A stretch of DNA of 64,000 nucleotides from Streptomyces sp. H27-H5. Lineage in GTDB: Bacteria; Actinomycetota; Actinomycetes; Streptomycetales; Streptomycetaceae. The notes below the pieces were generated by a model. That model was not told the origin of the DNA and ran no database searches. It worked only from the letters and a program-made list of their open reading frames with translations. The position numbers and the translations under genes are program-made. Shown here piece after piece: positions 27,668-53,266 of the stretch. Positions within the stretch are counted from its first letter, which is position 1. Each line of letters opens with the position of its first letter. The stretch is from assembly GCF_026627505.1 (NCBI RefSeq), contig NZ_JAPNLK010000038.1, positions 1 through 64,000 of the forward strand, read 5' to 3'.

Positions 27668-28645
27668 AGTCGGGGTCGGCGTGGGAGTCGGGGTCGGCGT
27701 GGGAGTCGGGGTTCCGGCGCAGCCCGGGGTGGCCTCCGGCGGCAGTGGCACGCGCCAGATCCGGGCGTCGTTCTCCGAACCGACCAACAGGCCGGCGCAG
27801 TCGGCGTACGTGAGCGTCTCACCCTGCGGCTGGGCCGGCAGCGCCACGTCCGCGAGCTTGTTCCCCGCGGTGTCGTACACCGTGGCGGTGTTGGCCCCGA
27901 GCGGTCCACCGCTGCGCAGGGCGTAGGAGGCCCCGGACGGGGAGAAGGCCCCGTCGGTCGTGAACACCGGGCCCGACCGGACCGGGGAGAGGGTGTTGAG
28001 CTGCCCGGACACGGGCGGCAGCGGGGCCTTGTACAGCTTGCCCGCCGCGCCGATGAGTTTGGTCGCGATGTAGAGCTGCCCGGTGACGGGGTCCGCGAGC
28101 AGGGACCCGGCGTCGTGCCGGCCGTCGGAGTAGGCGAAGCGGTGGCTGGTCGGGGTGACGGACGCGTCGGCGAGCACCTCAGGTTCGGCGAAGGCGTGGA
28201 CGGTGATCTCGGCGCGGCCGGCGAAGTTGTCCCCGATGTCGCCGACGAGGATCACGGGGGACCCCCCGGCGTCCTTGCCGAGCGCGAGGCCTTCCCAGTC
28301 GGTGTTGCCGACGCCGGTGACGGTGTAGGTCGCCACGAGCCGGCCGGATGTGGTGTTGCAGTCGACGGCGAAGACCTGATTGGTGTTGCCGCTGTCGTTG
28401 ACTGCGTAGAGGACGCCCGGGTGCCTGCGGCTCATGGCGAGACCGCTGAGTTCGGCCAGACCGCCGGGCAGGTCGCACGCGCGCGCGGGGGCCGGCGCGG
28501 CGGCCGGCGCCGCCGGGTCGGGGGGCGCCGGGGTCGCGGAAGCGGTGGCGGCGCCACCGGTCGCCCAAGCGGCGGCCGGCAGGGCGACGGCGAGGACGGC
28601 GGTGGCGAGGGCCGCCGCCCATGGTGTTCTGCGGGTGGGTGCCAT
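27371..28645 (-). CDS. Secreted propeller-like protein with PT linker and Ig-like tail
   Basis: A 424-aa exported protein. The signal peptide covers about residues 1-30 (ALATAVLAVALPAAAWA). Residues 45-300 look like a beta-propeller or esterase-like fold (LAELSGLAMSRRHPGVLYAVNDSGN, VGNTDWEGLALG, VGDIGDNFAGR). A (PT)n linker follows, then about 90 residues resembling an Ig-like/putative-Ig domain (CRFNQTCTIRLTTTGG, then ITGTPWTTGTHPIT). That tail is virtually identical, also in DNA, to the tail of the phosphoesterase gene ending at 48691. ATG at 28645; an in-frame ATG at 28654 is an alternative. Wall association is a guess. No precise function is assigned. Confidence 0.72.
   Translation of the reverse strand: MAPTRRTPWAAALATAVLAVALPAAAWATGGAATASATPAPPDPAAPAAAPAPARACDLPGGLAELSGLAMSRRHPGVLYAVNDSGNTNQVFAVDCNTTSGRLVATYTVTGVGNTDWEGLALGKDAGGSPVILVGDIGDNFAGRAEITVHAFAEPEVLADASVTPTSHRFAYSDGRHDAGSLLADPVTGQLYIATKLIGAAGKLYKAPLPPVSGQLNTLSPVRSGPVFTTDGAFSPSGASYALRSGGPLGANTATVYDTAGNKLADVALPAQPQGETLTYADCAGLLVGSENDARIWRVPLPPEATPGCAGTPTPTPTPTPTPTPTPTPTPTPTPTPTSGDLRIVDPGPQTCRFNQTCTIRLTTTGGTPPIRYTTTTLPWGLTLGPTTGRITGTPWTTGTHPITATDPTGATTHTTFTLTLNWF
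27633..27712. repeat. 18-bp tandem repeat encoding Pro-Thr
   Basis: Units of GTCGGGGTCGGCGTGGGA (plus strand) occur four times in a row with a partial fifth. On the coding minus strand they give an alternating Pro-Thr linker between the two domains. Such arrays are prone to slippage and probably vary between strains. Confidence 0.85.
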
Positions 28646-28756
28646 GCGCACCATGTGAGGGGACGTCGGGCGCGGATGCCAGGGCCAACGCCGTCCCGTT
28701 TGAGCATGGTTCAATGCCGAACCGACATGCCTCGCGGTCCGCAAGGCCTGTTCCGG

Positions 28757-29650
28757 TCAGGGTGCGGGCTCACGTACGGGGGCTTTGTGCAGGGCGTGCG
28801 CGATGAAGGCCCGGGCCGTCCGACCGAGGGGGCGCCGGGTGTGGGCGATGCCCACGGGGCGCAGCAGGGGCGGGGTGAACGAGCGGATCTCGGCGCGCGT
28901 GCCGAAGGCCCTGGAGACCACGTCCCGGTACCAGATGAGCGAGCCGCGCCCGTCCGTCACCCCGGTGACCCAGGCGAGTCGTTCGTCGACTTCCAGGCGG
29001 GGTTCGGGGCGCACGCCGAGGCAGCTGAACATGGCCTCCATCTCGGTCCGTCGGCCGGTGCCCGGGCACGGCAGCACCATGGGCAGCCCGTCGAGCAACC
29101 GGAACGGCATCGGGTCCGGCAGCCGGGAGCCGATGGGCGAGATCAGCACCACCTCCCGCTCCTGGACGTGGTGCGTGGACAGCTCCTGGTCGATCGGCAG
29201 GTCGACCAGCGCCAGTTCGGCGCTGCCGCCGGTGAGTTCCTGGACCAGGGCCTCCCGGCTGTCGCGCTGCAGGACCCGGACGTCCACCCCGGGATGCCGT
29301 CGGGTGAAGGAGGGCACCAGTTCGGCGGCCAGGTCCAGCGCCAGGGTCGGGGTGGCGACCAGGACGAGGGTGGTGCGGACGGCGTCGCCGTGACCGGTGC
29401 CGATGTCGTCGATCGCCTCGACGGCGCTCAGGACGGTGCGGGCCAGTCGTACCACCCTGGACCCCTCGGGAGTGAGGTCCACGCCCCGGCCCCGGCGGGC
29501 GAGGAGTTCCACGCCGAGATCGCGCTCCATGGCCTGGACGGCCCGGGAGAGGGCGGACTGGGCCACGAAGACCGAGGCGGCCGCGCCCGTGATGGAACGG
29601 CAGTCCGCGACGGCGACGAGGTAGCGAAGCTGCGCGAGTGTGGGGGTCAT
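28757..29650 (-). CDS. LysR-family transcriptional regulator
   Basis: A 297-aa regulator. The N-terminal winged helix is TLAQLRYLVAVADCRSITGAAASVFVAQSALSRAVQAMERDLGVELLARRGRGVDLTPEG (about 3-62). The LysR substrate-binding domain (about 90-290) includes LALDLAAELVPSFTRRHPGVDVRVLQ. It would act as a tetramer responding to a small co-inducer. It is encoded divergently from the polyketide operon across a 659-bp gap, which is the classic arrangement for a LysR regulator and its target; regulation of the operon is therefore likely but inferred. ATG at 29650. Confidence 0.9.
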   Translation of the reverse strand: MTPTLAQLRYLVAVADCRSITGAAASVFVAQSALSRAVQAMERDLGVELLARRGRGVDLTPEGSRVVRLARTVLSAVEAIDDIGTGHGDAVRTTLVLVATPTLALDLAAELVPSFTRRHPGVDVRVLQRDSREALVQELTGGSAELALVDLPIDQELSTHHVQEREVVLISPIGSRLPDPMPFRLLDGLPMVLPCPGTGRRTEMEAMFSCLGVRPEPRLEVDERLAWVTGVTDGRGSLIWYRDVVSRAFGTRAEIRSFTPPLLRPVGIAHTRRPLGRTARAFIAHALHKAPVREPAP

Positions 29651-30309
29651 GACCGGACGGTAACCGGGTGATGCCGTACCTGTAAGGGGCAGCATGGTGA
29701 ACAACTCCCGCGCCTCGGTGCGCCGTTCATGCCCGGGTGGCGAGAAGGCATACCGGCACGGCATGACCGTGCGCCTCGCCCCTCCCCTCACGCCTTCCCC
29801 GGCCCCGGCCCGAGGGGTGGACATCGCCGCAGGCCACCGGGCGGACGGGGGTGCAGGGCGGCCCGGGGGCGGAGGGTCGGGAACCGGCCGGCGGGTCCGG
29901 GAAGAGCGAGGGAACCCACTCCGCATACCGGTTGACAGTGCACGGTCATCACCGCACGATGCATCGCGGCGCCGGGGATTTTGACCACCGCTCAAGCCCG
30001 TCCGAACCGACGACGGGTCACCCGGCCGCGGCACGCACCGCGCCGGCGGAGTCGTCGACCGGCGTTGTTCTCCCGTCCTGCCCGCACGGCCCGCACCCCC
30101 ACAGCACGGCCCGTACGGCCCACGCGTCGCCCCGCACGGCACCGGCACCGCAGGCCCCCGCGCGCCTCACCGCGAGGCACCGGTGCGCGCACCACGCCAC
30201 GTGACACGGCACGACACCACACGGCACCACGGACCGCGCACCACCGCCCCACACCACCGCCCGCGCAGCAAACGCACCGCACCGGAACGCACCGGAAGAA
30301 GGAGCGCCC
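29651..30309. other. Long divergent region upstream of the polyketide operon
   Basis: 659 bp without a credible gene. Short related motifs (GCATACCGG, GGCATGACC, ATGCCGTACC) recur at 29670-29765, where LysR sites could lie. From about 30010 to 30300 the plus strand is strikingly C- and A-rich, with repeated ACGGC, GCACC and CACC words and few T. Frames open across this stretch look like composition artefacts. A ribosome site AAGGAG ends 5 nt before the GTG at 30310. Confidence 0.6.
29932..29960 (+). promoter_or_regulatory. Candidate promoter of the polyketide operon
   Basis: TTGACA (29932-29937), 17 nt, CACGAT (29955-29960). The -35 is consensus and the -10 is partial. It would give a leader of about 345 nt that includes the C/A-rich stretch. 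Confidence 0.4.
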
Positions 30310-33300
30310 GTGACCCCCCACCCCGCGCAGCCCCCCGCCACCCGTGACCTGGTCGTCGCGGCCTGCCCCTTCGAGGAGCCGCACCCCCGCATCGTCACCG
30401 CCGCCGAGCGCGCCGGGTCCCTCGGGCTGCTCGACCTCGGCCGGGACCCCGGACCCGCGCGGGACGCCTTCGCGGAGCTCGGGCGGCGGCTCGACGGCCG
30501 GCCGTACGGGGTGCGGGTACCGGTGGGCTGTCCGCTGGGCCCCGGGGAGCTTCCGGCGCAGGTGGACACGGTGTTGCTCGCCGATGTCGCGCAGCACGTC
30601 CCGGAGCGGGTGGCCGCCTGGGCGGCGGCCCCCGGTTCCCCCCGGGTCTGGGCCGAGATCACCGACCTCGGGGAGGCGCGGGCGGCGGTGGCGGCCGGGG
30701 CCGGGGCGATCGTGGCCAAGGGGCACGAGGCCGGCGGTCGGGTGGGCGCGAGCACCACCTTCGTCCTCCTCCAGCGGCTGCTGGCCGGGCCCGGACCGGG
30801 GGTGCCCGTCCTCGCGTGCGGGGGCATCGGCCCGCACACCGCGGCGGCCGCCGTCGCGGGCGGGGCCGCCGGTGTGCTGGTCGACGTACAACTGGCCCTG
30901 ACCTCGGAGGGGGTGGCCGGTCTGCCCGCGGAGGTCGTGGCCGCGCTGCGGGCGATGGACGGCTCCGAGACCCGGCTCGTGGACGGGCACCGGGTGTTCG
31001 CCCGGCCCGACCTTTCGCCGCCCGACGGAGCGGCGGCGCTTCTGCTCGGGGCCCGGGACCTGCGGACGCAGTTGCTGCCCGTCGGCCAGGACGGGGGCGT
31101 GGCGGACCGACTGGCCCGACGGCACCGCACCACGGGCGGGGTGCTCCGGGCCGTGCGGGCCGCCGTCGCCGGGCACATCGGGGCCGCCGCCAGGGAGAGA
31201 CCGCTGCTCGGATCCCGGGTGGTGGCGCAGGGCCCGATGACCCGGGTCAGCGACCAGGCGGCGTTCGCCGAGGCGGTGGCCGCGGCGGACGGCGTGCCCT
31301 ATCTCGCCCTCGCCCTGACCCGGGGCCCGCAGGCGCACCGGCTGCTGGCCGAGACTGCCGAACGGCTCGGGGACCGCCCGTGGGGCGTGGGCCTGCTCGG
31401 CTTCGCCCCGCCCGAGCTGCGCCGGGAGCAGCTCGCGGCCGTGGCGCGGGTGCGTCCCCCGTACGCGATCATCGCCGGCGGCACCCCGGCGCAGGCGGCC
31501 CCGCTGGAGGCGGCGGGGACGGTGACGCACCTGCACGTCCCCTCGCCCGGACTGCTGGAGCGGTATCTCGCCGAGGGGGCCCGGCGGTTCGTCTTCGAGG
31601 GGTCGGAGTGCGGCGGGCACGTCGGGCCGCGCGCCTCGTTCCCGCTGTGGGAGGAGCAGATCGAACGGCTGCTGTCCTGCGCCGAACCGGCCGCGCTGGA
31701 CGTCCTGTTCGCCGGCGGCATCCATGACGAGCGGTCCGCCGCGATGGCGGTCACGGCCGCCGCGCCGCTGATCGCCCGGGGGGCGCGGATCGGCGTACTG
31801 ATGGGCACCGCCTACCTGTTCACGCGGGAGGCGGTGGCGGCGGGCGCGATCCTGCCGGGTTTCCAGCGGACGGCGGTGGAGTGCGAGGAGACCGTCCTGT
31901 TGCACACGGCGCCGGGCCATGCCACCCGCTGCGCGGACACCCCGTACGCGGGAACGTTCGAGGAGACCAGACGGCGGCTCGCCGAGGGCGGGACCGAACC
32001 GCGCGAGATATGGGAGGAGTTGGAGCGGCTGAATCTGGGCCGGCTCCGGATCGCCGGCAAGGGGCTGCGTCGGGGCCCGGCCGGCCTGGAACCGGTGAGT
32101 GAGCGGGAGCAGTTGAGCGACGGACTGTTCATGCTCGGCCAGGCCGCCACCCTGCGGTCCGGGACCACGACGGTGGCCGCGCTGCACGCCCAGGTCACCC
32201 GGGGGGCGACGGAGTTCCTGGACCGGCGGGTCGCCGAGACGGCCGGGGCGGCCGAGGAGGAGGCCGGTCCCGTCGTCGAACCGCTCGACGTCGCCATCGT
32301 CGGAATGGCCTGCGCCTACCCGGGGGCGCCGGGTCTCGACGCCTACTGGTCGCAGATCCTGGCCGGCCGGGACGCCGTCACGGAGGTTCCGGTCGAGCGT
32401 TGGGACCCGGGGCTCTACTACGATCCCGACCCGGCCCGGGCCGGGGAGCGCACCCCCTCGCGCTGGGGCGGTTTCCTGGCGCCGATGCCGTTCGACGCCC
32501 TCGCCCACGGCATTCCGCCGACCTCGCTGGCCGGGATCGAACCGGTGCAGCTCCTGGCCCTGGAGATCTCGGCGCGGGCGCTCGGGGACGCCGGGTACGG
32601 CCGGGGCAGGGAGTTCGACCGCTCGCGGACCTCGGTGGTCTTCGGCGCGGAGGCGGGAACCGAGCTGGCGGGCGCGTACGGGATGCGCGCGCTGTATCCG
32701 GCCTATCTGGGCGAGCTGCCGCCCGCGTTGGACGAGCAGTTGCCCCGGCTGACGGAGGACTCCTTCCCGGGCATCCTCGCGAACGTGATCGCGGGGCGGG
32801 TCGCGAACCGTCTCGACCTGGGCGGCGCCAACTGCACCGTGGACGCCGCCTGCGCCTCCTCGTTGGCCGCGCTGGACCTGGCCTGCCGGCAACTGCGTGA
32901 CGGTGACAGCGACATGGTGGTGTGCGGCGGCGCCGACGTGCACAACGGCATCAACGACTACCTGATGTTCGCCTCGGTGCGGGCCCTGTCCCCCGGGGGC
33001 CGCTGCCGGCCGTTCGACGCCTCCGCGGACGGGATCGCGCTCGGCGAGGGGGTGGGCGCCCTGGTGCTGAAGCGTTTGACGGACGCGGAGCGCGACGGCG
33101 ACCGGATGTACGCGGTGATCAAGGCGGTCGGCGCGTCGAGCGACGGCCGGTCGCTGGGGCTGACCGCGCCCCGACCGGAGGGGCAGCGACGGGCCCTGGA
33201 GCGGGCGTACGCCCGGGCCGGCGTCTCCCCGGCCGACGTGGGACTGATCGAGGCCCACGGCACCGGGACCGTGGTCGGCGACAGCACCGAACTGTCCGTG

Positions 33301-36300
33301 CTGAGCGAGGTGTTCACCGCCTCGGGGGCCGAGCCGGGATCCTGCGCCCTGGGTTCGGTCAAATCGCAGATCGGCCACACCAAGTGCGCGGCCGGGCTGG
33401 CCGGCCTGATCAAGGCCGCATGGGCGGTGCACACGGGCATCCGCCCCCCGACCGCGCACCTGAGCACGCCGAACGCGGCCTGGCGGGCCGAGGACGGCCC
33501 GTTCGTCTTCGACACCGAGGCCCGGCCGTGGGCGGTGCCGGTGGAGCGGCGGATCGCGGGCGTCAGCGCGTTCGGTTTCGGGGGCACCAACTACCACGCG
33601 GTGGTGGCCGGTTACGGAGGCGCGGAGGAGCCGGGACACGGGCTGGAGGAGTGGCCGGCGGAGTTGTTCTGCTTCCGGGGCGAGGACCGGCGGGCCGCGG
33701 GGCGGGCGATGGCACGGCTCGCCGCCCGACTGGAGGAGAACGACGCGGCCGGCCGGCCCTGGGCCCTGCGGGACCTCGCGGCGGAGGCCTCCGCTTCGGG
33801 TACCGGGCCGGTGCGGGTGGCCGTGGTCGCCGCCGACGCGGACGAACTGGCGGTACGGCTGGAGCAGGCCCGCGGTTTCACGCCGGGCGCGGGGGTCCAC
33901 GTACGGGAGGAGGCGGCCGACCCCGGCGGGGTGGCGTTCCTCTTCCCCGGGCAGGGCAGCCAACGCGTGGGCATGCTCGGGGACTTGTTCATGGCGTTCC
34001 CCGCCCTGCGCGGGCTCCTGGACGAGGCGCCGGAGGGGGTGGCGGGCGCGATGTTCCCGCCGGCCGCGTTCACCGCGCCGGCGCGGGCCGCTCAGCGGGC
34101 GGCCGTCACCGACACCCGCGTGGCGCAGCCCGCCCTCGGGCTGGCCGGCGCCGCGGCGCACCTGCTGCTCGGCCGGCTCGGCGTGCGGCCGGACTGTGTC
34201 GCCGGGCACTCGTACGGGGAACTGACCGCGCTGTGGGCGGCGGGCGCGTACGACACGGCGAGCCTGTCACGGCTGAGCACGCGCCGGGCCGAGGCGATCC
34301 TGGCGGCGGCCGGAGCCGATCCCGGCGCGATGGCGGCGGTGTCGGCGGCGCCGGAGGAGGTCCGGGGCGTCGCGGCGCGGGCCGGGTGCGTGGTGGCGAA
34401 CCACAACGCACCCCGGCAGTGCGTGGTCTCGGGCCGCACGGAGGCGGTGGCCGAGGCGGTGGACGCGCTCCGGGCGTCCGGGCACACGGCCGAACTCCTG
34501 CCGGTGGCTTGTGCGTTCCACAGCGAGGTGGTGGCCGGGGCCGAGTCCGCGCTCGCCGCCGAGCTGGCGGCGACGGCGGTGTCCGTGCCGAGCGTCCCGG
34601 TGTGGTCGAACACCACGGCGGCCCCGTACCCGGCCGACGCCGACGGCGTACGCGGCCTCCTGGCGGGCCAGGTGGCGCGGCCGGTCCGGTTCGTCGACGA
34701 GGTGGAGGCCATGTACGCGGCCGGCGTCCGGACGTTCGTGGAAGCGGGCCCGGGCCGGGTGCTGTCCGGTCTGACGGCCCGGATCCTGGGCGATCGCCCG
34801 CACACGATGGTGCCGTTGGACATGCCCGGAGAGCACGGGCTGGTCCGACTGGTGACCGCCCTGGCCGAGTTGGCCGCGGCCGGGGTCCCGATCGCCCCCG
34901 AAGCCCTGTTCCGGGGCCGCACCGCCCCGCTCCCGGACCGGGCCCCGCGACGCCCGGGCTGGCTGGTGGACGGCCACCTGGTCCGCACCTCGGCCGGCAC
35001 CCCGATCCCGGGCGGCCTCCGCCCCGCCCACCGCATCCCCCGACCGGAGGCACCGATGAGCCCGCAGAGCGCCGCCGACCAGGACGGCTCCCCCCTTCCT
35101 CCCCTGTCCGCCCGGTCCCCCCGCCCCATCGAGACCCCGGCCCCCGCACCGAGGCCCGACACCGCGTCCGGGAACGGCCACGCGCCGATCGCGGCCCCCG
35201 GTCCCCGTGACGAGGCCGTGCTGGAGTACCTCCGCGGCTCGCGCCTGCTGATCGAGGCCCAACGCGAGGTTCTGCTGGGCTACCTGGGCCGCACCGGGCC
35301 CGGCGCGGGCGCGCCGGCCGCACCGGAGCCGCATCTCCCCGCCCGGCCCGCACCGGGCACGGCGTGGGGCGACGGCCCCGTCTGGAGCGACGGTCCGGCG
35401 TGGGCCACGGCCGGGCCCGACGGCCACCCGCCGGCGTCGGGGAGCCCGGGCCGTTCACCCGACCCGTGGGGGTCGGCACCGGTCAACGGCCGGGAGCCGG
35501 CGCACGCGACCCCGGCGCCGGGGCCTGCGAAGCGCGGCGGCGGAGCGGCGATCGAGGCGCCGGCGCCCCCCGATCCGTGGCGGGCGGCCGGCCCCGACAC
35601 CCCCTACGACGGTCCGGTGGACGGGCCGACGGACCGGCCGGACGCCCCGGCCGCGCCGCTGACCGCAGGCGGGGTGATGGACGTCGTCCTGGACATCGTG
35701 CACACCCGGACCGGCTATCCCCTGGACATGCTCGACCCCGGGCTGGACCTGGAGGCCGACCTGTCCATCGACTCCATCAAGCGGGTCGAGATCATCGGCG
35801 CCCTCGCCGACCGGATCGGCCTCCCCCGGGACCCGGGCGGCTCCGCCGAGTCGGCCGTCGAGGAGCTCTCCCGCCTCAAGACCCTGCGCGGCGTCGTCGA
35901 CTGGGTCGTGTCCCACACCACGCCCTCCGCCGGCGGGTCCGACACCACGATCGCCGACCTCACGCCCGCCGAGACCGCGACCACCGGCGCCGCGGCCCAC
36001 GACACCGACACCCCGGCCGGTGTCTCGGCGTCGACCGGCGCACGGTACGACGGGCCCGGCATCCGCCCCGCCGGGCCGCGGCCGCGCCGGATGCGCGTGG
36101 ACCTCGTACCCGTCGCACCGCCCGCCGGGGATCCGGCCGGACTGCGCGGGCTGCGGATCGGGATCGTCGACGACGGGCAGGGGGTGGCGACCGCACTGAG
36201 CGGGGCGCTGGAGTCCCACGGGGTCGAGGTGCGGTTGCTGTCCGGGCCCGAGGCCGGCCACGACGGGCTCGTCGACCTGTCCGCGCTCCGGGCCGCTCAG

Positions 36301-37656
36301 GGCGCGGGGCAGGAACCCGTCCTGCCCGGCGCCTTCGCCGGGCTCAAGGGGGCCCTCGTCGGCGGTGTGGGCCGGCTGATCCTCGCCGCCACCCCCGACT
36401 CGGGCCTGCACGGCTTCGCCCGCAGCGCCGCCCTGGAGTTTCCCGGCGCCCTGATCCGGGCGGTGGGGGTGCACCCGAAGGAGGACCCGGCCCGCGTCGC
36501 CGCTCAGCTGCTCGCCGAGTTGAGCGACGGCGCCGAGGCCCGGGCCTGCGACTCCGCTGACGAGAGCGGCAGGAGCGGGCACGACCATGACGGTCACGGC
36601 CCGGGCGCCGACCCCGCCGCCGCGCCTCTCCACTCCGTCGTCTACACCGCCGACGGAGCCCGCGTCACGGCCCGTCCGGTGCCGGCGGACCTCACCTCCA
36701 CGGGATCGGCGCCACCCCTCGGCCGCGACTCCGTCGTCCTGCTCACCGGCGGCGCCCGCGGGATCACCGCCCGGACCGCGCTCGCCCTCGCCCGTGCCAC
36801 CGGCTGCCACGTCGAGCTCGTCGGACGCACTCCCGAGCCGACGGCCGCGGAGGACGAGCGGTACGGGCAGGCCACGGACCGGGTGGCGCTGCGCGCCGCG
36901 CTGGTGGCGGCGGGGTTGCGCACTCCCGCCGAGATCGAGGCCGCCGCCTCCCGGATCCTCGCCGAGCGCGAGGTGCGGGCCACGCTGGCGGCCCTCGCCG
37001 GCGTCGCCGCCTCCGTCCGCTACCACCGCGCCGACGTCACCGACGAGCGGGCGGTACGGGCCGTCGTGGCGGCCGTCCGGGCCCGGCACGGCCGGCTCGA
37101 CGGCATCGTGCACGGCGCCGGCGCCCTCCGCGACGGTCTGCTGCGGGACAAGCGGCCGGAGGCCTTCGCCGAGGTGTTCACCACCAAGGTGGCCGGCGCC
37201 CGGCACCTCGCCGCGGTCGCCGCCGACCACGGCGACACGCCCGCCCCCGCCTTCCTGGCCCTCTTCGCCAGCGTGTCCGGGGTGTACGGCAACCGCGGCC
37301 AGAGCGACTACGCCGCCGCCAACGACGCCCTGGACGGGCTCGCCCACACCTGGTCGGCCCGCTTCCCCGGCCGGGTGCTGTCCCTCGACTGGGGCCCTTG
37401 GGCGGCCGAGGCGGGTGGCATGGTCACCCCCGAGTTGGAGCGTGCGTACGGCCGCCGCGGCATCGCGGTGCTCAGCCCCGAGGCGGGTACCGCCGCCTTC
37501 CTCGCCGAACTCTCGGACGGCCACGACGTACAGGTCGTCCTGACGGCGGCGCGGGACGAGGGGCACGGTGGTACCGGAGGCAGAGCGGGAACCGCGCACG
37601 AAGCCGGAACCGGTGGCGGCGGGACCGGCTTCGGGACCGGGGAGCGCCGTGACTGA
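30310..37656 (+). CDS. PUFA-like iterative type I PKS subunit: tandem flavin barrels-KS-AT-ACP-KR
   Basis: A 2448-aa megasynthase. Two nitronate-monooxygenase/PfaD-like TIM barrels come first: about 1-230 with HEAGGR144VG, and about 310-640 with the full SECGGH437VGP signature. A complete ketosynthase follows (about 655-1100; Cys848 in DAACASS, His983 in EAHGTGT, His1023 in IGHTK). The acyltransferase (about 1195-1510) has Ser1301 in GHSYGE, the PUFA-type motif. A Pro-rich linker leads to one ACP (Ser1822 in LSIDSIKRVEI, also PUFA-type), then a ketoreductase (TGGARGI, FASVSGVYG, SDYAAAND). It would extend a chain with malonyl units, reduce ketones, and probably reduce enoyl groups with its own flavin domains. 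In PUFA synthases the enoyl reductase PfaD is a separate protein, so the fusion is notable. GTG start with AAGGAG upstream. Confidence 0.93.
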   Translation: MTPHPAQPPATRDLVVAACPFEEPHPRIVTAAERAGSLGLLDLGRDPGPARDAFAELGRRLDGRPYGVRVPVGCPLGPGELPAQVDTVLLADVAQHVPERVAAWAAAPGSPRVWAEITDLGEARAAVAAGAGAIVAKGHEAGGRVGASTTFVLLQRLLAGPGPGVPVLACGGIGPHTAAAAVAGGAAGVLVDVQLALTSEGVAGLPAEVVAALRAMDGSETRLVDGHRVFARPDLSPPDGAAALLLGARDLRTQLLPVGQDGGVADRLARRHRTTGGVLRAVRAAVAGHIGAAARERPLLGSRVVAQGPMTRVSDQAAFAEAVAAADGVPYLALALTRGPQAHRLLAETAERLGDRPWGVGLLGFAPPELRREQLAAVARVRPPYAIIAGGTPAQAAPLEAAGTVTHLHVPSPGLLERYLAEGARRFVFEGSECGGHVGPRASFPLWEEQIERLLSCAEPAALDVLFAGGIHDERSAAMAVTAAAPLIARGARIGVLMGTAYLFTREAVAAGAILPGFQRTAVECEETVLLHTAPGHATRCADTPYAGTFEETRRRLAEGGTEPREIWEELERLNLGRLRIAGKGLRRGPAGLEPVSEREQLSDGLFMLGQAATLRSGTTTVAALHAQVTRGATEFLDRRVAETAGAAEEEAGPVVEPLDVAIVGMACAYPGAPGLDAYWSQILAGRDAVTEVPVERWDPGLYYDPDPARAGERTPSRWGGFLAPMPFDALAHGIPPTSLAGIEPVQLLALEISARALGDAGYGRGREFDRSRTSVVFGAEAGTELAGAYGMRALYPAYLGELPPALDEQLPRLTEDSFPGILANVIAGRVANRLDLGGANCTVDAACASSLAALDLACRQLRDGDSDMVVCGGADVHNGINDYLMFASVRALSPGGRCRPFDASADGIALGEGVGALVLKRLTDAERDGDRMYAVIKAVGASSDGRSLGLTAPRPEGQRRALERAYARAGVSPADVGLIEAHGTGTVVGDSTELSVLSEVFTASGAEPGSCALGSVKSQIGHTKCAAGLAGLIKAAWAVHTGIRPPTAHLSTPNAAWRAEDGPFVFDTEARPWAVPVERRIAGVSAFGFGGTNYHAVVAGYGGAEEPGHGLEEWPAELFCFRGEDRRAAGRAMARLAARLEENDAAGRPWALRDLAAEASASGTGPVRVAVVAADADELAVRLEQARGFTPGAGVHVREEAADPGGVAFLFPGQGSQRVGMLGDLFMAFPALRGLLDEAPEGVAGAMFPPAAFTAPARAAQRAAVTDTRVAQPALGLAGAAAHLLLGRLGVRPDCVAGHSYGELTALWAAGAYDTASLSRLSTRRAEAILAAAGADPGAMAAVSAAPEEVRGVAARAGCVVANHNAPRQCVVSGRTEAVAEAVDALRASGHTAELLPVACAFHSEVVAGAESALAAELAATAVSVPSVPVWSNTTAAPYPADADGVRGLLAGQVARPVRFVDEVEAMYAAGVRTFVEAGPGRVLSGLTARILGDRPHTMVPLDMPGEHGLVRLVTALAELAAAGVPIAPEALFRGRTAPLPDRAPRRPGWLVDGHLVRTSAGTPIPGGLRPAHRIPRPEAPMSPQSAADQDGSPLPPLSARSPRPIETPAPAPRPDTASGNGHAPIAAPGPRDEAVLEYLRGSRLLIEAQREVLLGYLGRTGPGAGAPAAPEPHLPARPAPGTAWGDGPVWSDGPAWATAGPDGHPPASGSPGRSPDPWGSAPVNGREPAHATPAPGPAKRGGGAAIEAPAPPDPWRAAGPDTPYDGPVDGPTDRPDAPAAPLTAGGVMDVVLDIVHTRTGYPLDMLDPGLDLEADLSIDSIKRVEIIGALADRIGLPRDPGGSAESAVEELSRLKTLRGVVDWVVSHTTPSAGGSDTTIADLTPAETATTGAAAHDTDTPAGVSASTGARYDGPGIRPAGPRPRRMRVDLVPVAPPAGDPAGLRGLRIGIVDDGQGVATALSGALESHGVEVRLLSGPEAGHDGLVDLSALRAAQGAGQEPVLPGAFAGLKGALVGGVGRLILAATPDSGLHGFARSAALEFPGALIRAVGVHPKEDPARVAAQLLAELSDGAEARACDSADESGRSGHDHDGHGPGADPAAAPLHSVVYTADGARVTARPVPADLTSTGSAPPLGRDSVVLLTGGARGITARTALALARATGCHVELVGRTPEPTAAEDERYGQATDRVALRAALVAAGLRTPAEIEAAASRILAEREVRATLAALAGVAASVRYHRADVTDERAVRAVVAAVRARHGRLDGIVHGAGALRDGLLRDKRPEAFAEVFTTKVAGARHLAAVAADHGDTPAPAFLALFASVSGVYGNRGQSDYAAANDALDGLAHTWSARFPGRVLSLDWGPWAAEAGGMVTPELERAYGRRGIAVLSPEAGTAAFLAELSDGHDVQVVLTAARDEGHGGTGGRAGTAHEAGTGGGGTGFGTGERRD

Positions 37657-40600
37657 CGGCCCGCGGCGCGGGCCGCGACCGATCGACGCGGCCATCGTCG
37701 GGATGGGCGCGGTCTTCCCGGGGGCCCCGGACCTGGCCGCCTACCGCCGCAATCTGCTCGCCGGAACGGATTCCATCGGCGAGGTCCCGCCCGACCGCTG
37801 GGATCCCGAGGTGTACTACGACCCCGCCGGGGCCACCGGGCCGGCGCGCGGGGACCGTTTCTACTGCCGGCGGGGCGGCTTCATCGACGGGCCGGCCGCC
37901 TTCGATCCGACCCGTTTCGGGATCATGCCGTCGGCGGTCGAGGGAGCCGAGCCGGACCAGCTCCTGGCTCTGCACGTGAGCGCCGAGGCGGTCGCCGACG
38001 CGGGCGGCGAGGAACGACTGCCGGCCGACCGCTCGCGGATCGGGGTGGTGCTCGGACGCGGCGGTTTCATGGGCGTGGCCACCGCCCGGTTGGACCAACG
38101 GGTGCGGACCGCGCACCAGTTGACCCAGACCTTGCGGGAGGTGGCGCCCGAGCTCGGGGAGCGGCGCATCGCGCAGGTGCGCTCCGCCTTCCAGGACGCG
38201 CTGGGACCGGATCGACCCGATGCCTCGATCGGGCTCGTGCCGAGCTTCACCGCCGCCCGGACGGCGAACCGGTTGGACTTCCGGGGCCCGGCCTACACCC
38301 TGGACGCGGCCTGCGCCTCCTCGCTCCTCGCGGTGGACCAGGCGGTCGGGCTGTTGGCGGGCGGGCGCTGTGACGTGGTGGTCGCCGGGGCGGTGCACCA
38401 CTGCCACATCGCCACGCTCTGGAGCGTGTTCACCCAGTTGCGGGCGTTGAGTCCGACCGAGCGGATCCGCCCCTTCGACCGGCGGGCCGACGGAACGCTG
38501 CTCTCGGAGGGCACCGGCGTGGTGCTGCTGAAGCGGCTCGCGGACGCGGAGCGGGACGGGGACCGGATCTACGCGGTGATCCGGGGCACGGGGGTCGCCG
38601 GTGACGGGCGCGCGGCGAGCCTGATGAGCCCGCTCGTCACGGGGCAGGTACGGGCGCTCGAACGGGCGTGGCGGGAGGCCGGTCTGGATCCCCGCTCCCC
38701 CGGGGCGCTGGGGCTCCTGGAGGCGCACGGTACGGGCACGCCGATCGGGGACGCGGCCGAACTGGACACACTGACGAGAGTCTTCGGGACGTCGGACGAG
38801 GGTGCGGGGTCGGCGGGGATCGGCTTCGGGTCGGTGAAGTCGATGCTGGGGCACACCATGCAGGCGTCGGGGATCGCCGGGTTGATCAAGGCGGCGCTGG
38901 CGGTGCACGAGGGCGTCCTGCCGCCCACCCTGCACCTGGAGGAGCCGCACCCGAACCTGGCCCGGACGCGGATGCGGCCGGTGACGGTGGCCGAGCCGTG
39001 GGAACGCGGTCCCGAGCCCCGGCGGGCCGGTGTCAACGCGTTCGGGTTCGGCGGGATCAACGCCCACGTGGTGCTGGAGGAGGCCCCGGGTGCCTCCGCG
39101 CACCCCGGCGGCGGCGCGCCGAGACCCGCGCCGCCGGTGCGCCGCTTCCTGCCGATGGGCTCGCCGCCCCCGACCTCGACTCCGGCCTCGACGGGGGCGG
39201 GGGCGCGGGAGGACGTGCTCCTGCTCGCCGGGGAGAGCACGGCCGACGTGGCCGAACTCCTGGCCGCCGGGGCGCCCTCGGATCCGTTGGGCATGTCGTC
39301 CGGGGACGGCCCGTGCCGGCTCGCGGTGGTCGGGCCCACGCCGCAGCGGCTCGCGCTGGCCGCGAAGGTGCTGGCGCGCGGGCGGACGTGGCACGGCCGG
39401 GGGGACGTGTGGTTCACACCCGAACCCCTGGGCGGCCGGCTCGCGTTCCTCTACCCGGGCCTGGAACCGGAGTTCGCACCGGTCGCCGACGACGTCGCGG
39501 ACCTGCTCGGCCTGGACCGCCCCCGGCTCGGACGGGGCGGGGAGTTGATGGAACGGGCGTTGGACGCCATCGAGGCGGGCCGGTTCTTCGGCCGCGCCCT
39601 CGGTGAACTGGGCATCGAGGCGGACGTGTCGGCCGGTCACAGCCTGGGCGAGTGGGCGGCGATGGTGGCGGCCGGCATGTACCCGCGGGAGGCCGTCGAC
39701 ACCTTCCTCGCCTCGCTGCGGCCGGGCTCGCTGAAGGTACCGGACCTCGTGTACGCGGCACTGGGCTGTGGGGCGCCGCGGGCCGAGGCGGCGCTGCACG
39801 GCGAGGACGGGGTGGTGGTCAGCCACGACAACTGCCCGCACCAGTCGGTGGTGTGCGGGGATCCCGCCGGGGTCGCCCGGGTCGTGGCCCGGCTGGGGGC
39901 CGAGGGGGTGCTGTGTCGGGAGCTCCCGTTCCGTTCGGGGTTCCACACGCCGATGTGGGAGCCGTACCTGGGTCAGGTCCGGGCGGCGTTCGATCGGCTT
40001 CCGTTGCGTCCGGCCGCGGCAGGGCGGGTCTGGTCGGCGACGACGGTGTCCCCGTTCCCGGCGTCGACCGAGGAGGTACGGGAGTTGGTGGTGCGGCACC
40101 TCCTGGAACCGGTGCGCTTCCGCGCGTTGACGCTGCGGATGTACGAGGAGGCGGGGGTGCGGCACTTCGTGACGCTGGGCCCGGGGAGCCTGCCGGGGTT
40201 CGTCGAGGACACCCTGCGGAACCGGCCGCACCTGTCGGTGGCCGCGTCCTCGCCCCGCCTGACGGGCGTGGCCGCACTGCGTCGGGCGTGTGCGGCGCTG
40301 TGGACGCAGGGGCAGGCGCCGAAGTGGGACCGGCTATCGCAGGACACCCCGCCCGACCCGACAGGGACTCCGGCCCCGAGCACGAAGCTCACGGCCCCCG
40401 CGGCCCCCACCCCGACCATGCCGGCGGGCCCGACCGCGCCGGTGGGCCGGCCGGCGGTGTCCCGCGCGGTACCGCTGGACCTGGGCTCCCCCCTGGTGCG
40501 TCTCTCCCCCGCCGCCCTGGCCCGACTGCGCGCCCCCGGCCCGGCCGGGGCCGAGGTCCCGACGGGGAGCGCGGCCCGGGCCCCGTACCGCGGTGGCACG

Positions 40601-42190
40601 GAACGCGGCGGCACGGAAGGCGGCGGCGGTGACGGCGCGGGGCAGGCCCCGGGGCGGGCGGTCCTGCGGCTCGGTCTCGACACGCTGCCCTACGTACGGG
40701 ACCACCGGGTCTACCTCCAGCCGGCCGGCTGGCCGGAGGAGTCCGACTGGTTCCCCGTCGTCCCCATGACCACCATGCTGGAGCTGGCCTCGCAGGCCGC
40801 CCTGGCCCACATCGCCCGCACCGACCACGGCCGGGACGCCGTCGAGGTCGTCGGGTACGAGGACGTCCGCGCCCTGCGGTGGCTCCCCGTCGAGCCCGCC
40901 CACGACATCGAGGTCCGTGTCCGCGCGGACGGCCCCGGGCGCGTCCACGTCGCTCTGGGCGAGTACGCCGGCGTCGTCGTCCTGCTCGGCCGGTCCTTCG
41001 ACCCGGCGCCGGCGCCCGACCCCACGCCGCTGCGCGACCCGGGCCCCGCCCCCGTCAGCGCGGACGCGCTCTACCGTGACCGGTGGATGTTCCACGGCCC
41101 CCGCTTCGCCGGGGTGCACGAGGTCCGAACGGTGGCCGCCGACGGCATCCGGGGCGTGCTGCGCGCCCTCCCGGACCCCGGGGCGCTGCTCGACGCCGCC
41201 GGGCAGTTGTTCGGGCACTGGATGCAGCTCCGGCTGCCGGTGGACCGGCTCGTGTTCCCCTCCACCGTCGAACGGGTCCGCTTCCACGGGCCGCCGCCCC
41301 CGCCGCACGCCCTGGTGGCGGCCACCGCCCGGATCCGGGAGGTCCGCGGGACCACCGTGCGGGGCGATCTCGAACTGTGCCGTCCCGACGGCCGGGTCTG
41401 GGCCCGGATCGACGGCTGGACGTACCGGCGCTTCGGCGCCGACGAGCGGGTGTGGCCGATGAAGTTCACCCCGGAGGTCTGCGGGATCGGTGAGCCGCAG
41501 CCCGCCGGGTGGTGCCTGGCCCGCCGCCGGTGGACGGATCCCGCGTCGCAGGAGCTGGTGATGCGCCGCTATCTCGGGGCGGCCGAGCGGGCCGTGTACG
41601 AGCGGCGGTCACCGCGGGAGCGGCCCGCCTGGCTGCTCGGCCGGATCGCGGCCAAGGACGCGCTGCGGGGCCTGCTGTGGGACGGCGGCGCCGGTGCGGT
41701 GTTCCCGGTGGAGGTGCCGGTCGGCAACGACCCGTCGGGGCGTCCGGTGCCGGAAGGGCCGCTGGTCACGGGAGTTCACCTCTCGATCGCCCACAAGGAC
41801 CGGCTGGCGGTCGCCCTGGCCCACCGCGCCCGGCCCGTCGGGGTGGACGTCGAGACGGTGACCACCGATCCCGACGCCCTGGCGCGGATCGCCCTCGGTC
41901 AGGGTGAACGGGCCCTGGCCGAACGGCTGGCGGCCCTCGACGGGAGCACGCTGTCGGCCGCGCTGACCACGCTCTGGTGCGCCAAGGAGGCCGCCGCGAA
42001 GGCCGAGGGCACCGGTCTCGCCGGCCGCCCCCGCGACTGGCGGGTGTCGGGCGATCCCGGATCCGGTGTCCTGCGCGTGGTGTCCCCCGCGCGCGTCGCC
42101 CACACGGTCCGCCACGACACGATCCCCGCGAGCCACCCCACCCCCCTCGACCACCTCGTCGCCTGGACGGAGCCCCACCATGACCACTGA
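37649..42190 (+). CDS. PUFA-like PKS subunit: KS-AT-DH-phosphopantetheinyl transferase
   Basis: About 1513 aa. Ketosynthase (about 10-450): Cys222 in DAACASS, EAHGTGTPIGD and LGHTMQASG all present, so it is not an obvious inactive chain-length factor. Acyltransferase (about 580-880) has Ser665 in GHSLGE and the LYPGLEPEF opening. A double-hotdog dehydratase region (about 1005-1265) has YVRDHRVY and LLDAAGQLFGHW. A C-terminal Sfp-type phosphopantetheinyl transferase (about 1275-1510) has GRIAAKDAL, HLSIAHK, GVDVE and WCAKEAAAKAEG. It would dehydrate intermediates and activate the ACPs of this system in cis. The GTG at 37649 has GGGGAG upstream and overlaps the previous stop by 8 nt; an open frame from 37568 exists but overlaps further. 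Partner of the upstream subunit. Confidence 0.92.
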   Translation: MTDGPRRGPRPIDAAIVGMGAVFPGAPDLAAYRRNLLAGTDSIGEVPPDRWDPEVYYDPAGATGPARGDRFYCRRGGFIDGPAAFDPTRFGIMPSAVEGAEPDQLLALHVSAEAVADAGGEERLPADRSRIGVVLGRGGFMGVATARLDQRVRTAHQLTQTLREVAPELGERRIAQVRSAFQDALGPDRPDASIGLVPSFTAARTANRLDFRGPAYTLDAACASSLLAVDQAVGLLAGGRCDVVVAGAVHHCHIATLWSVFTQLRALSPTERIRPFDRRADGTLLSEGTGVVLLKRLADAERDGDRIYAVIRGTGVAGDGRAASLMSPLVTGQVRALERAWREAGLDPRSPGALGLLEAHGTGTPIGDAAELDTLTRVFGTSDEGAGSAGIGFGSVKSMLGHTMQASGIAGLIKAALAVHEGVLPPTLHLEEPHPNLARTRMRPVTVAEPWERGPEPRRAGVNAFGFGGINAHVVLEEAPGASAHPGGGAPRPAPPVRRFLPMGSPPPTSTPASTGAGAREDVLLLAGESTADVAELLAAGAPSDPLGMSSGDGPCRLAVVGPTPQRLALAAKVLARGRTWHGRGDVWFTPEPLGGRLAFLYPGLEPEFAPVADDVADLLGLDRPRLGRGGELMERALDAIEAGRFFGRALGELGIEADVSAGHSLGEWAAMVAAGMYPREAVDTFLASLRPGSLKVPDLVYAALGCGAPRAEAALHGEDGVVVSHDNCPHQSVVCGDPAGVARVVARLGAEGVLCRELPFRSGFHTPMWEPYLGQVRAAFDRLPLRPAAAGRVWSATTVSPFPASTEEVRELVVRHLLEPVRFRALTLRMYEEAGVRHFVTLGPGSLPGFVEDTLRNRPHLSVAASSPRLTGVAALRRACAALWTQGQAPKWDRLSQDTPPDPTGTPAPSTKLTAPAAPTPTMPAGPTAPVGRPAVSRAVPLDLGSPLVRLSPAALARLRAPGPAGAEVPTGSAARAPYRGGTERGGTEGGGGDGAGQAPGRAVLRLGLDTLPYVRDHRVYLQPAGWPEESDWFPVVPMTTMLELASQAALAHIARTDHGRDAVEVVGYEDVRALRWLPVEPAHDIEVRVRADGPGRVHVALGEYAGVVVLLGRSFDPAPAPDPTPLRDPGPAPVSADALYRDRWMFHGPRFAGVHEVRTVAADGIRGVLRALPDPGALLDAAGQLFGHWMQLRLPVDRLVFPSTVERVRFHGPPPPPHALVAATARIREVRGTTVRGDLELCRPDGRVWARIDGWTYRRFGADERVWPMKFTPEVCGIGEPQPAGWCLARRRWTDPASQELVMRRYLGAAERAVYERRSPRERPAWLLGRIAAKDALRGLLWDGGAGAVFPVEVPVGNDPSGRPVPEGPLVTGVHLSIAHKDRLAVALAHRARPVGVDVETVTTDPDALARIALGQGERALAERLAALDGSTLSAALTTLWCAKEAAAKAEGTGLAGRPRDWRVSGDPGSGVLRVVSPARVAHTVRHDTIPASHPTPLDHLVAWTEPHHDH

Positions 42191-42503
42191 CATCCTCGCC
42201 GAGATCACCGACATGCTCGTGGAGATCGTCGGCGACGAGTTCCTCGTCGCCCAGGAGGTCACGATGCGCACCACCTTCAACGAGGACCTCGCCTTGGAGA
42301 GCATCGAGTTCGTCGCGCTCGCCGAGTCGCTGCACCACCGCTACGGCGCCGAGGTCGACCTGATGGGCTTCCTCGCGGAGAAGGACATGGACGGCATCCT
42401 CGCCATGTCGGTGGGCGAGATCGTCGAGCACATCGCCCGGGTCACGCACGGTTCCCTCGCGCGGGCGACCGGCTCCCCCGCCTCCGCCGCCTCGGCCGGC
42501 TGA
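42180..42503 (+). CDS. Free acyl carrier protein
   Basis: A 107-aa discrete ACP. The phosphopantetheine serine is Ser41 in DLALESIEFVALAESLHHRYG. ESIEF replaces the usual DSLE/DSIK, so it differs from the integrated ACP. A flexible Ala/Ser-rich tail ends the protein. ATG at 42180, 7 nt after GGAG, overlapping the PKS stop by 11 nt; a longer frame from 42066 is a shadow of the PPTase. It may carry a starter or deliver the finished chain to the tailoring enzymes. Confidence 0.9.
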   Translation: MTTDILAEITDMLVEIVGDEFLVAQEVTMRTTFNEDLALESIEFVALAESLHHRYGAEVDLMGFLAEKDMDGILAMSVGEIVEHIARVTHGSLARATGSPASAASAG

Positions 42504-42509: not shown

Positions 42510-43334
42510 GTGTCCTTCGTCCGCGCGAACGGCCTGCGCTTCCACGTCCAACGGCTCCCGGCCGACGCCGGGTCCGACGCCGGCCGCCGACCCGTGGTGG
42601 TCTTCCTGCACGGCCTCGTCGTCGACAACCTGTCCTCCTTCTACTGCCCCCTGGCCGTGCCGGTGGCCCGGTCCGGGTTCGAGACCGTGCTGTACGACCT
42701 GCGCGGACACGGCCGTACGGAGCGGCCGGCCGGCGGGTACGACAGCGCCACCGCGGTACGCGACCTCGTGGCGATGCTCGGCGCCCTGGGCCTCGGGCAC
42801 CGGCCGGTCCACCTCGTCGGCAACAGTTACGGCGCGACCCTCGCCGTGCACGCCGCGCTGGCCCGCCCCGACGTGGTCGTCGGGCTGACCCTCCTCGAAC
42901 CGCCCCTCGCCGGGGCCTGGGTGGAGAACATGGTGGACACCCTGTCGGCCGCCGCGTTGAGCCTGGAGGACAGCCCGGTGCTGGCCGAACTGCTGACCCT
43001 TCGGCTGCGGAAGGCCGCGAACCTGACCGCGATCGCGGACGACCTGCTCAACCGGACCAGCCTGATCGACGACATCGCGGCCAGTCGCGTCTTCACCCCG
43101 GCCGACTACGCCAGGCTGGACTGCCCGACCCTGACGCTGTGCGGGGAGCACTCCGAACTGCTGCCGGGTGGGCGGACGTTGGTACGTCATACCCCGCGGG
43201 CGACGCTGACGGTCCTGCCGGGTCTGGGGCACGACGTACTCAAGGAGAGCAGTGGTGTCCTGCGGGAGACCGTGCTCGCCCACCTCGAAACGACGGCCGC
43301 GTCGCGGGTGCGGACGGGAGCTCTGATCCGATGA
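42510..43334 (+). CDS. Alpha/beta hydrolase (possible chain-release enzyme)
   Basis: 274 aa. Oxyanion strand VVFLHGLVVDN, DLRGHGRTERP, nucleophile Ser106 in GNSYGATLAVHAAL, and catalytic His in LPGLGHDVLKE with LCGEHSELL as the probable acid region. No signal peptide, so cytoplasmic. GTG start at 42510, 6 nt after the ACP stop; its end overlaps the glycosyltransferase start (ATGA). Since neither PKS subunit has a thioesterase domain, this protein is the best candidate for releasing or editing the chain. A general esterase is the alternative. Confidence 0.85.
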   Translation: MSFVRANGLRFHVQRLPADAGSDAGRRPVVVFLHGLVVDNLSSFYCPLAVPVARSGFETVLYDLRGHGRTERPAGGYDSATAVRDLVAMLGALGLGHRPVHLVGNSYGATLAVHAALARPDVVVGLTLLEPPLAGAWVENMVDTLSAAALSLEDSPVLAELLTLRLRKAANLTAIADDLLNRTSLIDDIAASRVFTPADYARLDCPTLTLCGEHSELLPGGRTLVRHTPRATLTVLPGLGHDVLKESSGVLRETVLAHLETTAASRVRTGALIR

Positions 43335-44497
43335 GGGTGCTGTTCACGGTTCCGCCGCTCGCGGGGCACGTCAATCCGACCGCCGCCGTCGGGGCGGAAC
43401 TCGCCTCGCGGGGCCACGAGGTCGCCTGGACCGGGCCGCCCGGGGAACTCGCCCGACTGCTCCCCCCGCACGCCCGGATCCTCCCCGCGGGGGAGCACGT
43501 CGCGGGCGGCTACGCCGGGCTGCACGAGCGGTGGCGCGACCTGCGCGGGGTGGCCGCGCTGCGCTTCCTGTGGGAGGAGGCGCTGATACCGCTGGCCCGG
43601 GCGATGGAACCGGGGGTGCTCGCCGCGGCCGCCCGGTTCGCGCCGGACGTGCTGGTCGCCGACCAACAGGCCCTGGCCGGGCCGATTGTGGCCCGTCGGC
43701 TCGGCATCCCGTGGGTGACGTCGGCCAGCACCTCCGCCGAACTCACCCGTCCCTTCGCCGGATTCCCCAAGGTCGGGGAGTGGGTGTCGGAGCGGATCGG
43801 CGCGCTGCTGAGCGAGTACGGCGCGGACGACGGGGACTGGGATCCGCGGTTCTCCGAACGCCTGGTGTGGGTGTTCTCCACGCCCGAGTTGGTGGGGACG
43901 GGCGCCGAGGTTCCGCCGCACCACGCCTATGTGGGTCCGGCCTTCGGGGCCCGGCCGGCGGCGCCCGATTTCCCCTGGCGGCGGCTGGACCCGGCGCGCC
44001 GGCGGGTCCTGGTGTCGTTGGGCACGCTCAACCAGGAGGCCGGCATCCGATTCTACCGCGCGGTCCTCGGCGCCGCCGAACGCCTTTCCGATGACGTCCA
44101 GTTGGTGCTGTCCGCCCCCGCCTCCACGATCGGGGGTCGGACGCCGGCGAACGTGCTGGTCCAGGACGGCGTTCCCCAACTGGAGCTGCTGCCGCACCTG
44201 GACGCGGTGGTCAGCCACGGCGGCCACAACACCGTGTGCGAGGCACTCGCGCACGGGCTGCCGCTGGTGGTCGCGCCCATCCGGGACGACCAGCCGATCG
44301 TGGCCCGCCAGGTCGTCGAGGCGGGCGCCGGCGTCCGGGTGCGCTTCGGTCGGACGGGGCCCGAGGAACTGCGCGACGCGCTCACGGCCGTGCTGGACGA
44401 TCCCGGCCCCCGCCGGGCCGCCCGCCGCATCCAGGCCTCCTTCGCCGCGGCCGGCGGGGCCGCCGCCGCGGCCGACCGGTTGGAGAAGCTGTCATGA
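43331..44497 (+). CDS. GT1-family glycosyltransferase
   Basis: A 388-aa GT-B glycosyltransferase of the MGT/UGT type. The N-terminal acceptor domain starts MRVLFTVPPLAGHVNPTAAVGAELASRGHEV. The C-terminal donor domain has RVLVSLGTLNQ and the PSPG-like box LLPHLDAVVSHGGHNTVCEALAHGLPLVVAPIRDDQ (about 290-325). Such enzymes move an NDP-sugar onto small hydrophobic acceptors, including polyketides and rhamnolipid-type acyl chains. It is coupled to both neighbours by ATGA overlaps, so glycosylation of the PKS product is a strong inference. The sugar is unknown. Confidence 0.92.
   Translation: MRVLFTVPPLAGHVNPTAAVGAELASRGHEVAWTGPPGELARLLPPHARILPAGEHVAGGYAGLHERWRDLRGVAALRFLWEEALIPLARAMEPGVLAAAARFAPDVLVADQQALAGPIVARRLGIPWVTSASTSAELTRPFAGFPKVGEWVSERIGALLSEYGADDGDWDPRFSERLVWVFSTPELVGTGAEVPPHHAYVGPAFGARPAAPDFPWRRLDPARRRVLVSLGTLNQEAGIRFYRAVLGAAERLSDDVQLVLSAPASTIGGRTPANVLVQDGVPQLELLPHLDAVVSHGGHNTVCEALAHGLPLVVAPIRDDQPIVARQVVEAGAGVRVRFGRTGPEELRDALTAVLDDPGPRRAARRIQASFAAAGGAAAAADRLEKLS

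Positions 44498-50992: not shown

Positions 50993-53266
<2,274 letters not shown>

Follow-up and report, generated by a model that had tools for sequence, protein, structure and literature searches.

A probable Type M synthase locus of Streptomyces sp. H27-H5 with two FabK-like barrels, the first without the proposed catalytic histidine, and a conserved glycosyltransferase neighbour

What does a megasynthase make when it carries its own reductase at the N-terminus, and is that reductase the PfaD subunit of polyunsaturated fatty acid (PUFA) synthases? These questions are raised by a stretch of 64,000 nucleotides from Streptomyces sp. H27-H5 (contig NZ_JAPNLK010000038.1, positions 1 to 64,000, called the window below), which belongs to a genome of 9.13 Mb in 380 contigs. 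Its central gene encodes protein A, which a preliminary description of the window had read as a new arrangement, with PfaD fused to PfaA. We conclude, with about even confidence, that protein A and the following protein B build the acyl moiety of a glycolipid as an iterative synthase, that the two N-terminal barrels of A are a covalent pair of one active and one inactive reductase, and that the product is not eicosapentaenoic acid (EPA) or docosahexaenoic acid (DHA).

Protein A is read in a single open frame of 2448 aa from a GTG start preceded by AAGGAG, and a frame of this length class (2252-2575 aa) is kept in all 20 relatives that were fetched, which is more than chance. Pfam gives its domains in the order NMO (two stretches, the best at residues 372-544), ketosynthase (KS), acyltransferase (AT), PP-binding and ketoreductase (KR), and there is one in-line PP-binding stretch, the acyl carrier protein (ACP). 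In the alignment of 21 proteins (the window and 20 relatives), GHSYGE, starting at residue 1299, and SIDSIKR, starting at residue 1819, are identical in all A proteins except for I/V at position 1820. Of the presumed active-site residues that were compared in the two proteins, all are unchanged in 21 of 21 sequences but one, a Glu of the phosphopantetheinyl transferase (PPTase) of B, which is found in 20 of 21. The AT and ACP motifs had been taken as PUFA-type; both are present, but GHSxGE is found widely among AT domains, so that by itself it is not PUFA-specific. The closest named locus among the matches listed is that of Streptomyces sp. WM4235 (94% over A residues 1-640). If protein B starts at GTG 37649, it overlaps A by 8 bases, and the identical 8-base overlap is found in the relative G119. 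The genes of B, the free ACP, an alpha/beta hydrolase, a glycosyltransferase (GT) and a methyltransferase (MT) are joined one after another by overlaps or a short gap.

The arrangement turned out to be in print already (the papers are cited here from excerpts). A and B fit the description of Type M, a pfaD-pfaA-like fusion together with a pfaBC-like fusion that carries the PPTase (PMC13291983, PMC3098273), and by this published description the window is a further member of the type. Type M was named in 2011 and is listed as Pfa-like, without product in the excerpt, for Actinosynnema, three Frankia, Renibacterium and S. avermitilis (PMC3098273); Frankia members are also among the relatives found here. 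In the PPTase, the motif hShxH (P1b') is LSIAH in the window, and the pattern is found in 20 of 21 proteins (none in G020, and two, with WSLVH, possibly misplaced), while P0 (hRxhLS) and (F/S)NxSH were each found in 0 of 21, in line with Type M as excerpted (PMC3098273). A type I polyketide synthase (PKS) is conserved in all Frankia strains (PMC3848822), and it may be the A-type synthase.

An account of 2026 describes fused pfaDA and pfaBC-PPTase genes in Aquimarina and Flavobacterium, closely like those of Renibacterium, and a pfaD-pfaA fusion in Ottowia (PMC13291983). By that description the two fusions are alike and the PPTase is likewise on the second protein, whereas those clusters are hybrids of PKS and nonribosomal peptide synthetase and here a GT, a hydrolase and an MT follow; the reductase is termed pfaD there, but is FabK-like by sequence here. 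The S. coelicolor cluster, which had been named among related hglE-KS-class clusters, is assigned to Type L and has pfaD as a gene of its own (PMC3098273); it is a cousin of another type than A/B. The heterocyst glycolipid synthase (Type F, hgl) is Pfa-like too and its product is a glycolipid; it has KS, chain-length factor (CLF) and AT in hglC and no dehydratase/isomerase (DH/I) domain according to the excerpt (PMC3098273), whereas no CLF is seen in A/B and the dehydratase (DH) is in B. In our searches of the openly licensed literature we found no product of this synthase type, and no description of the FabK-type tandem, of the His loss in its first copy or of the conserved GT; supplements and subscription papers lie outside that literature, and this is no proof of novelty.

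To what class, then, might the product belong? A scan of contigs gave at least 585 relatives (591 stretches), and the best 80, which are not a random sample and several of which are cut by contig ends, were used. The architecture is carried by 21 of the 101 genomes sampled from the family and, at E < 1e-50, by 46 of 147 from the order (own genome included in both), and it is present in other phyla too. A, B and the free ACP are present in all 20 fetched loci of the order, although A in G146 is based on separate comparisons, the best A match listed there being its B gene. The hydrolase and the GT are each found in 19 of 20 loci, both missing in G005, which was read over 20 kb only. The MT part is also found in 19 of 20; it is missing in G132, and runs in the opposite direction in G003, G005 and G113. 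The part of about 280 aa that precedes the MT (44494-45324, plus strand), with one hydrophobic stretch, is fused to it only in the close group, and high-identity homologues of the P450, LysR, phosphoesterase and SDR genes are confined to the seven closest loci.

In addition, 16 named genomes were hand-picked from the best 80. All 16 have a B homologue. In 15 of them, from 14 Actinomycetota and one member of the Acidobacteriota, the best GT homologue shares a contig with B and lies downstream of A, at 12.0-16.1 kb from its start; an MT is near in 10. The GT that accompanies the synthase over this range is the best clue to the product, which would be a glycolipid or a glycosylated polyketide. 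Two variants were seen on the way: the metagenome-assembled genome (MAG) L102 has an open frame of 3365 aa in which GHSxGE occurs twice, which points to a fusion of A with part of B, and the L127 genome (G299) has a second B-like gene on contig C20 with a GT homologue beside it, so the species may carry two such clusters.

A glycosylated, diffusible polyketide of the antibiotic type, and not a membrane or envelope glycolipid, is a rival reading. This GT is closest to oleandomycin/macrolide glycosyltransferases, with rhamnosyltransferases at best at 1.2e-13, and a P450 gene and a gene for a UvrA-type ABC protein lie nearby. However, the GT accompanies the synthase in 15 of 16 genomes while the P450 and ABC genes are confined to the close group, and we regard the antibiotic-type product as unlikely. 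Separately, a rhamnolipid-like reading of hydrolase plus GT was set aside, since the GT matches macrolide-type enzymes first and the matches of the hydrolase are a mixed range of esterases and epoxide hydrolases. A lead to bisenarsan, an arsenic polyketide whose PKS makes trimethylnonenoic acid (PMC12159101, excerpt), was dropped, though not excluded.

For the N-terminal region, an AlphaFold2 model of residues 1-648 (24 relatives; mean pLDDT 87.6, pTM 0.91) supports two (beta/alpha)8 barrels, and barrel 1 modelled alone has eight strands alternating with helices (pLDDT 78.2, pTM 0.79). The best structural match of model residues 296-647 is FabK 2z6i (Z 35.2; 308 aligned at rmsd 2.4), and the matches also include MlnA, a trans-AT reductase (Z 31.0), PfaD (Z 29.8) and FabX. 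The barrel 1 model matches FabK 5gvh best (Z 18.8, rmsd 2.5, 187 aligned), with PfaD (Z 15.8) and many IMP dehydrogenases (Z 15-17) as further matches. In the PDB profile search FabK was reached by barrel 1 at E 1.8e-23 and by barrel 2 at E 2e-14, no bacterial PfaD chain was reached by either at E <= 1, and barrel 1 matched a thraustochytrid ERc chain at E 0.15. The NCBIfam model of PfaD, TIGR02814, has no match to either barrel at E <= 0.01, and the FabK model TIGR03151 gives 34.5 and 52.7 bits on the two, against a cut-off of 453.1.

Barrel 1 is itself a homologue of barrel 2 (probability 95.9). Barrel 2 also has a weak profile match to two actinobacterial PfaD proteins (probability 50.8, E 1.6e-4), and together with the common fold this makes the kinship of the barrels to PfaD distant, not nil. 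TIGR02814 passes its cut-off in 2 of 149 genomes of the phylum, with two more strong partial matches, while no PfaD was found in the window's own genome, where its best match is 21 bits. By sequence, the barrels are FabK/nitronate-monooxygenase-like and not PfaD. The fusion of PfaD to PfaA was consequently rejected on the evidence of hidden Markov models, with FabK best by model and by PDB profile; the likeness in fold and the weak likeness in profile remain.

Does each barrel keep its active site? The barrel alignment has 101 rows (the window, 20 genomes and 80 named loci), 100 of them distinct because G020 and L081 are identical over residues 110-560, and His was counted from the alignment and not by motif patterns. 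His437 of barrel 2 is present in all 101 rows, in agreement with the preliminary description, which had chosen it for a variant. Barrel 2 retains GPMT, ECGGH and MGT, and its last strand has MGT in 100 rows and VGT in 1. At the corresponding position of barrel 1 (Arg144 in the window) there are 88 Arg, 4 Pro, 4 Leu, 3 Ala, 1 Trp and 1 Val, and no His in 101 rows. The GPM motif is absent from barrel 1 in the alignment, and where barrel 2 has MGT, which presumably contacts the phosphate of flavin mononucleotide (FMN), barrel 1 carries D-x-Q (E or H in three rows). Barrel 1 is nevertheless conserved, with a mean pairwise identity of 0.576 and 41 of 223 columns at >=95%. The order barrel-barrel-KS-AT-ACP-KR given earlier therefore stands, by the Pfam order and the two modelled TIM barrels, but with neither the His nor MGT in barrel 1 it is doubtful that both are flavin barrels.

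In FabK, the His of this motif is proposed to be catalytic (PMC13311796, PMC9260719). Barrel 2 shares with FabK the TIM barrel, the ECGGH-type His and the FMN-site motifs; unlike FabK, A has two copies in one chain, the first without the His, fused to a megasynthase and under the NCBIfam cut-off. TIM-barrel reductases are said to require dimerisation, and ERb/ERc of thraustochytrids are a heterodimer (PMC13311796). Like the barrels of A, ERb and ERc are two related TIM-barrel reductases, proposed to be an unequal pair, but in that paper, as excerpted, they are PfaD-like, lie on two proteins and both have the catalytic His. The simplest reading is that barrel 1 and barrel 2 would be a covalent pair with one member disarmed.

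Alternatively, both barrels could be active flavoenzymes, for example one reducing and the other isomerising or oxidising (compare FabX, a dehydrogenase/isomerase with this fold). Barrel 1 is strongly conserved and is nearer to FabK by profile than barrel 2, and FabX is found among the structural matches of barrel 2, all of which would suit two working enzymes; the lack of the His (101 of 101 rows), of GPM and of MGT in barrel 1, with D-x-Q instead, makes this quite unlikely.

The KS domains bear on the ancestry of the synthase. The KS tree has 74 rows, with 24 A and 19 B rows hand-picked and no labelled enediyne KS among them, and it took 25 of the genome's 41 PF00109 matches; 30 loci were given, three with a KS too short, and A and B of the window entered under other names. 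Its group labels were assigned from neighbourhood and score, and it carries a long-branch warning. The A clade (24 rows, 100/99), in which the Frankia member L110 is nested, is sister to three PfaA-type KS that adjoin PfaD matches (100/97). The B clade (19 rows) is separate (100/99), and 19 other PKS-type KS of the same genome fall apart from the A clade, which puts A outside the modular PKS-type KS of its own genome. Where B and PfaC join the A and PfaA ketosynthases, the forks are weak (93/61, 94/66), and L202, labelled PfaC, grouped with the genome's own PKS rows. The best NCBIfam model for A is PfaA TIGR02813, with 871.7 bits, below the cut-off of 1010.1. The claim of a PUFA-type KS was thus upheld by the tree proposed for checking it.

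A PUFA-like KS need not mean a PUFA product. According to the excerpt of PMC3098273, PUFA synthases have 4-6 tandem ACPs in PfaA, and in PfaC a KS-CLF with two FabA-like DH/I domains. In B, whose one KS has Cys/His/His, no CLF domain was seen, and no FabA-like family was found for B at E <= 0.01, nor for its DH part at E <= 1. The AT of B has GHS[VLA]GE and SGFH across the relatives, without the Tyr of bacterial PfaB (cf. PMC12895367, excerpt). Compared with canonical PfaABCDE, the PfaA-type KS and the KS-AT-ACP-KR order are alike, whereas A/B have a single in-line ACP, a PKS-type DH, no CLF and no PfaD. Since the DH is of the PKS type, the in-line ACP is single and no CLF is seen, a methylene-interrupted PUFA would be unlikely. 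A genuine EPA/DHA-like PUFA synthase with a fused PfaD, for which the sister KS, the PfaA model as best match and a fold as in PfaD would speak, is very improbable in view of these domains, the AT of B and the missing match to the PfaD model. The ancestry is PUFA-like and the product probably not a PUFA.

The proposal of a glycolipid-type synthase starts from the gene and domain order, the conserved active sites, the KS kinship, the FabK-type barrels, the absent His of barrel 1 and the neighbouring genes, all of which were observed; from them we infer the catalysis, the role of barrel 1, the order of steps and the product. Together A and B would form an iterative type I synthase in two proteins, one of the Type M secondary lipid synthases, with carriers activated by the PPTase in B. 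The AT of A would load malonyl, and the KS of A would condense on the in-line or free ACP. The beta-carbon would be processed by the KR of A, the PKS-type DH of B and the FabK-like barrel 2 of A (presumably with FMN and His437), while barrel 1 would be its His-less, probably flavin-free covalent dimer partner, in place of the usual homodimer of TIM-barrel enoyl reductases. The chain would be released, perhaps by the alpha/beta hydrolase or the AT of B, after which the GT1 enzyme would attach a sugar and, in most members, a methyl group would be added, to give a glycolipid or a glycosylated polyketide and not EPA or DHA.

Several points weigh against this proposal. Product, substrate, flavin and the partner role of barrel 1 are predictions from the sequence. 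The scores of both barrels lie far below the curated FabK cut-off, so "enoyl reductase" is itself a deduction, and other chemistry is known from nitronate-monooxygenase-like enzymes that share this fold. Besides, the GT resembles macrolide glycosyltransferases and does not necessarily act on lipids, 6 of the 16 named genomes lack an MT or have none close by, and in a Planctomycetota MAG (L133, G301) the best GT and MT homologues were found on contig C335, apart from A and B, which lie on C445. A degenerate or silent cluster that yields nothing today would agree with the lack of a product in our searches of the openly licensed literature but is scarcely credible with frames and active-site residues intact over 21 loci.

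What makes the locus worth following is that the type, though common and named in 2011, showed no product in our searches of the openly licensed literature, and the conserved GT offers a concrete product class to look for. The active/inactive barrel pair, in turn, offers a simple mutant test of the control of enoyl reduction in an iterative synthase. One step further, the pair could be an ancient module, in which an active FabK barrel is joined for good to a disarmed copy whose conserved Arg144, Asp192 and Gln194 would sense the acyl chain and act as a gate for enoyl reduction, and the two-protein machine would in this way programme the saturation of a glycolipid found across several phyla; this idea is tentative and, as it stands, unlikely. 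The features of the locus are collected in the table.

Table. Positions in the window of the synthase genes, their domains and residues, and the adjoining genes
Feature	Position	Strand	Basis
Protein A, 2448 aa, barrel 1 - barrel 2 - KS - AT - ACP - KR	30310..37656	+	Open reading frame, Pfam, AAGGAG before GTG, relatives
Barrel 1, residues 13-235, FabK-like TIM barrel without the catalytic His	30346..31014	+	PDB profile, model, alignment
EAGGR, residues 140-144, barrel 1 counterpart of ECGGH	30727..30741	+	Alignment
Barrel 2 and C-terminal helical part, residues 301-645, FabK-like reductase (putative)	31210..32244	+	PDB profile, model
His437 of ECGGH, proposed catalytic	31618..31620	+	Invariant in 101/101 rows
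KS of A, residues 660-1051, PfaA-type, Cys848/His983/His1023	32287..33462	+	Pfam, KS tree, alignment
AT of A, residues 1210-1491, malonyl-type CAFH	33937..34782	+	Pfam, alignment; motif meaning from excerpt of PMC12895367
In-line ACP of A, residues 1792-1838, Ser1822	35683..35823	+	PP-binding 20.2 bits, just below Pfam cut-off 20.8
KR of A, residues 2142-2365	36733..37404	+	Pfam, alignment
Protein B, KS - AT - PKS-type DH - PPTase	37649..42190	+	Open frame from 37568; GTG 37649 preferred
KS of B, Cys/His/His present	37691..38941	+	Pfam, alignment, KS tree
AT of B, GHSLGE and SGFH	39608..40258	+	Pfam, alignment
DH of B, PS-DH type, His1046 and Asp1209	40667..41446	+	Pfam, alignment
PPTase of B	41834..42070	+	PF01648 47.2 bits; residues conserved
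Free ACP	42180..42503	+	Open frame from 42066, ATG 42180 preferred; PP-binding 18.0 bits, under cut-off
Alpha/beta hydrolase, possible thioesterase	42510..43334	+	Pfam, database matches; 19/20 loci
GT1 glycosyltransferase	43331..44497	+	Open frame from 43139, ATG 43331 preferred; 19/20 loci
N-terminal part of about 280 aa and class I methyltransferase; conserved part 45325-46347	44494..46428	+	PF13489 98 bits
Divergent LysR-type regulator	28757..30148	-	6/20 loci, close relatives only

Several other genes of the window were noted. The cluster is flanked by 27371-28744 (minus strand) and 47153-48691 (plus strand), which have a He_PIG Ig-like C-terminal domain in common; the product of the latter is phosphoesterase/phospholipase-C-like, and the He_PIG pairing is repeated in five close relatives. 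The frame 46185-47378 (plus strand, 397 aa) is kept at 50-71% in seven close relatives and has no Pfam match at E <= 1; by eye only, its product looks GHMP-kinase-like. A P450 gene is also near the cluster. The UvrA-type ABC protein at 50993-53266 (plus strand), in which the UvrA DNA-binding domain is weakly matched, adjoins a TetR regulator and has 91-93% identity in two close relatives. Farther upstream, 19280-23298 (plus strand) holds adjacent secreted-type glycosidases, namely an alpha-galactosidase with a ricin-type lectin domain and an alpha-N-acetylglucosaminidase.

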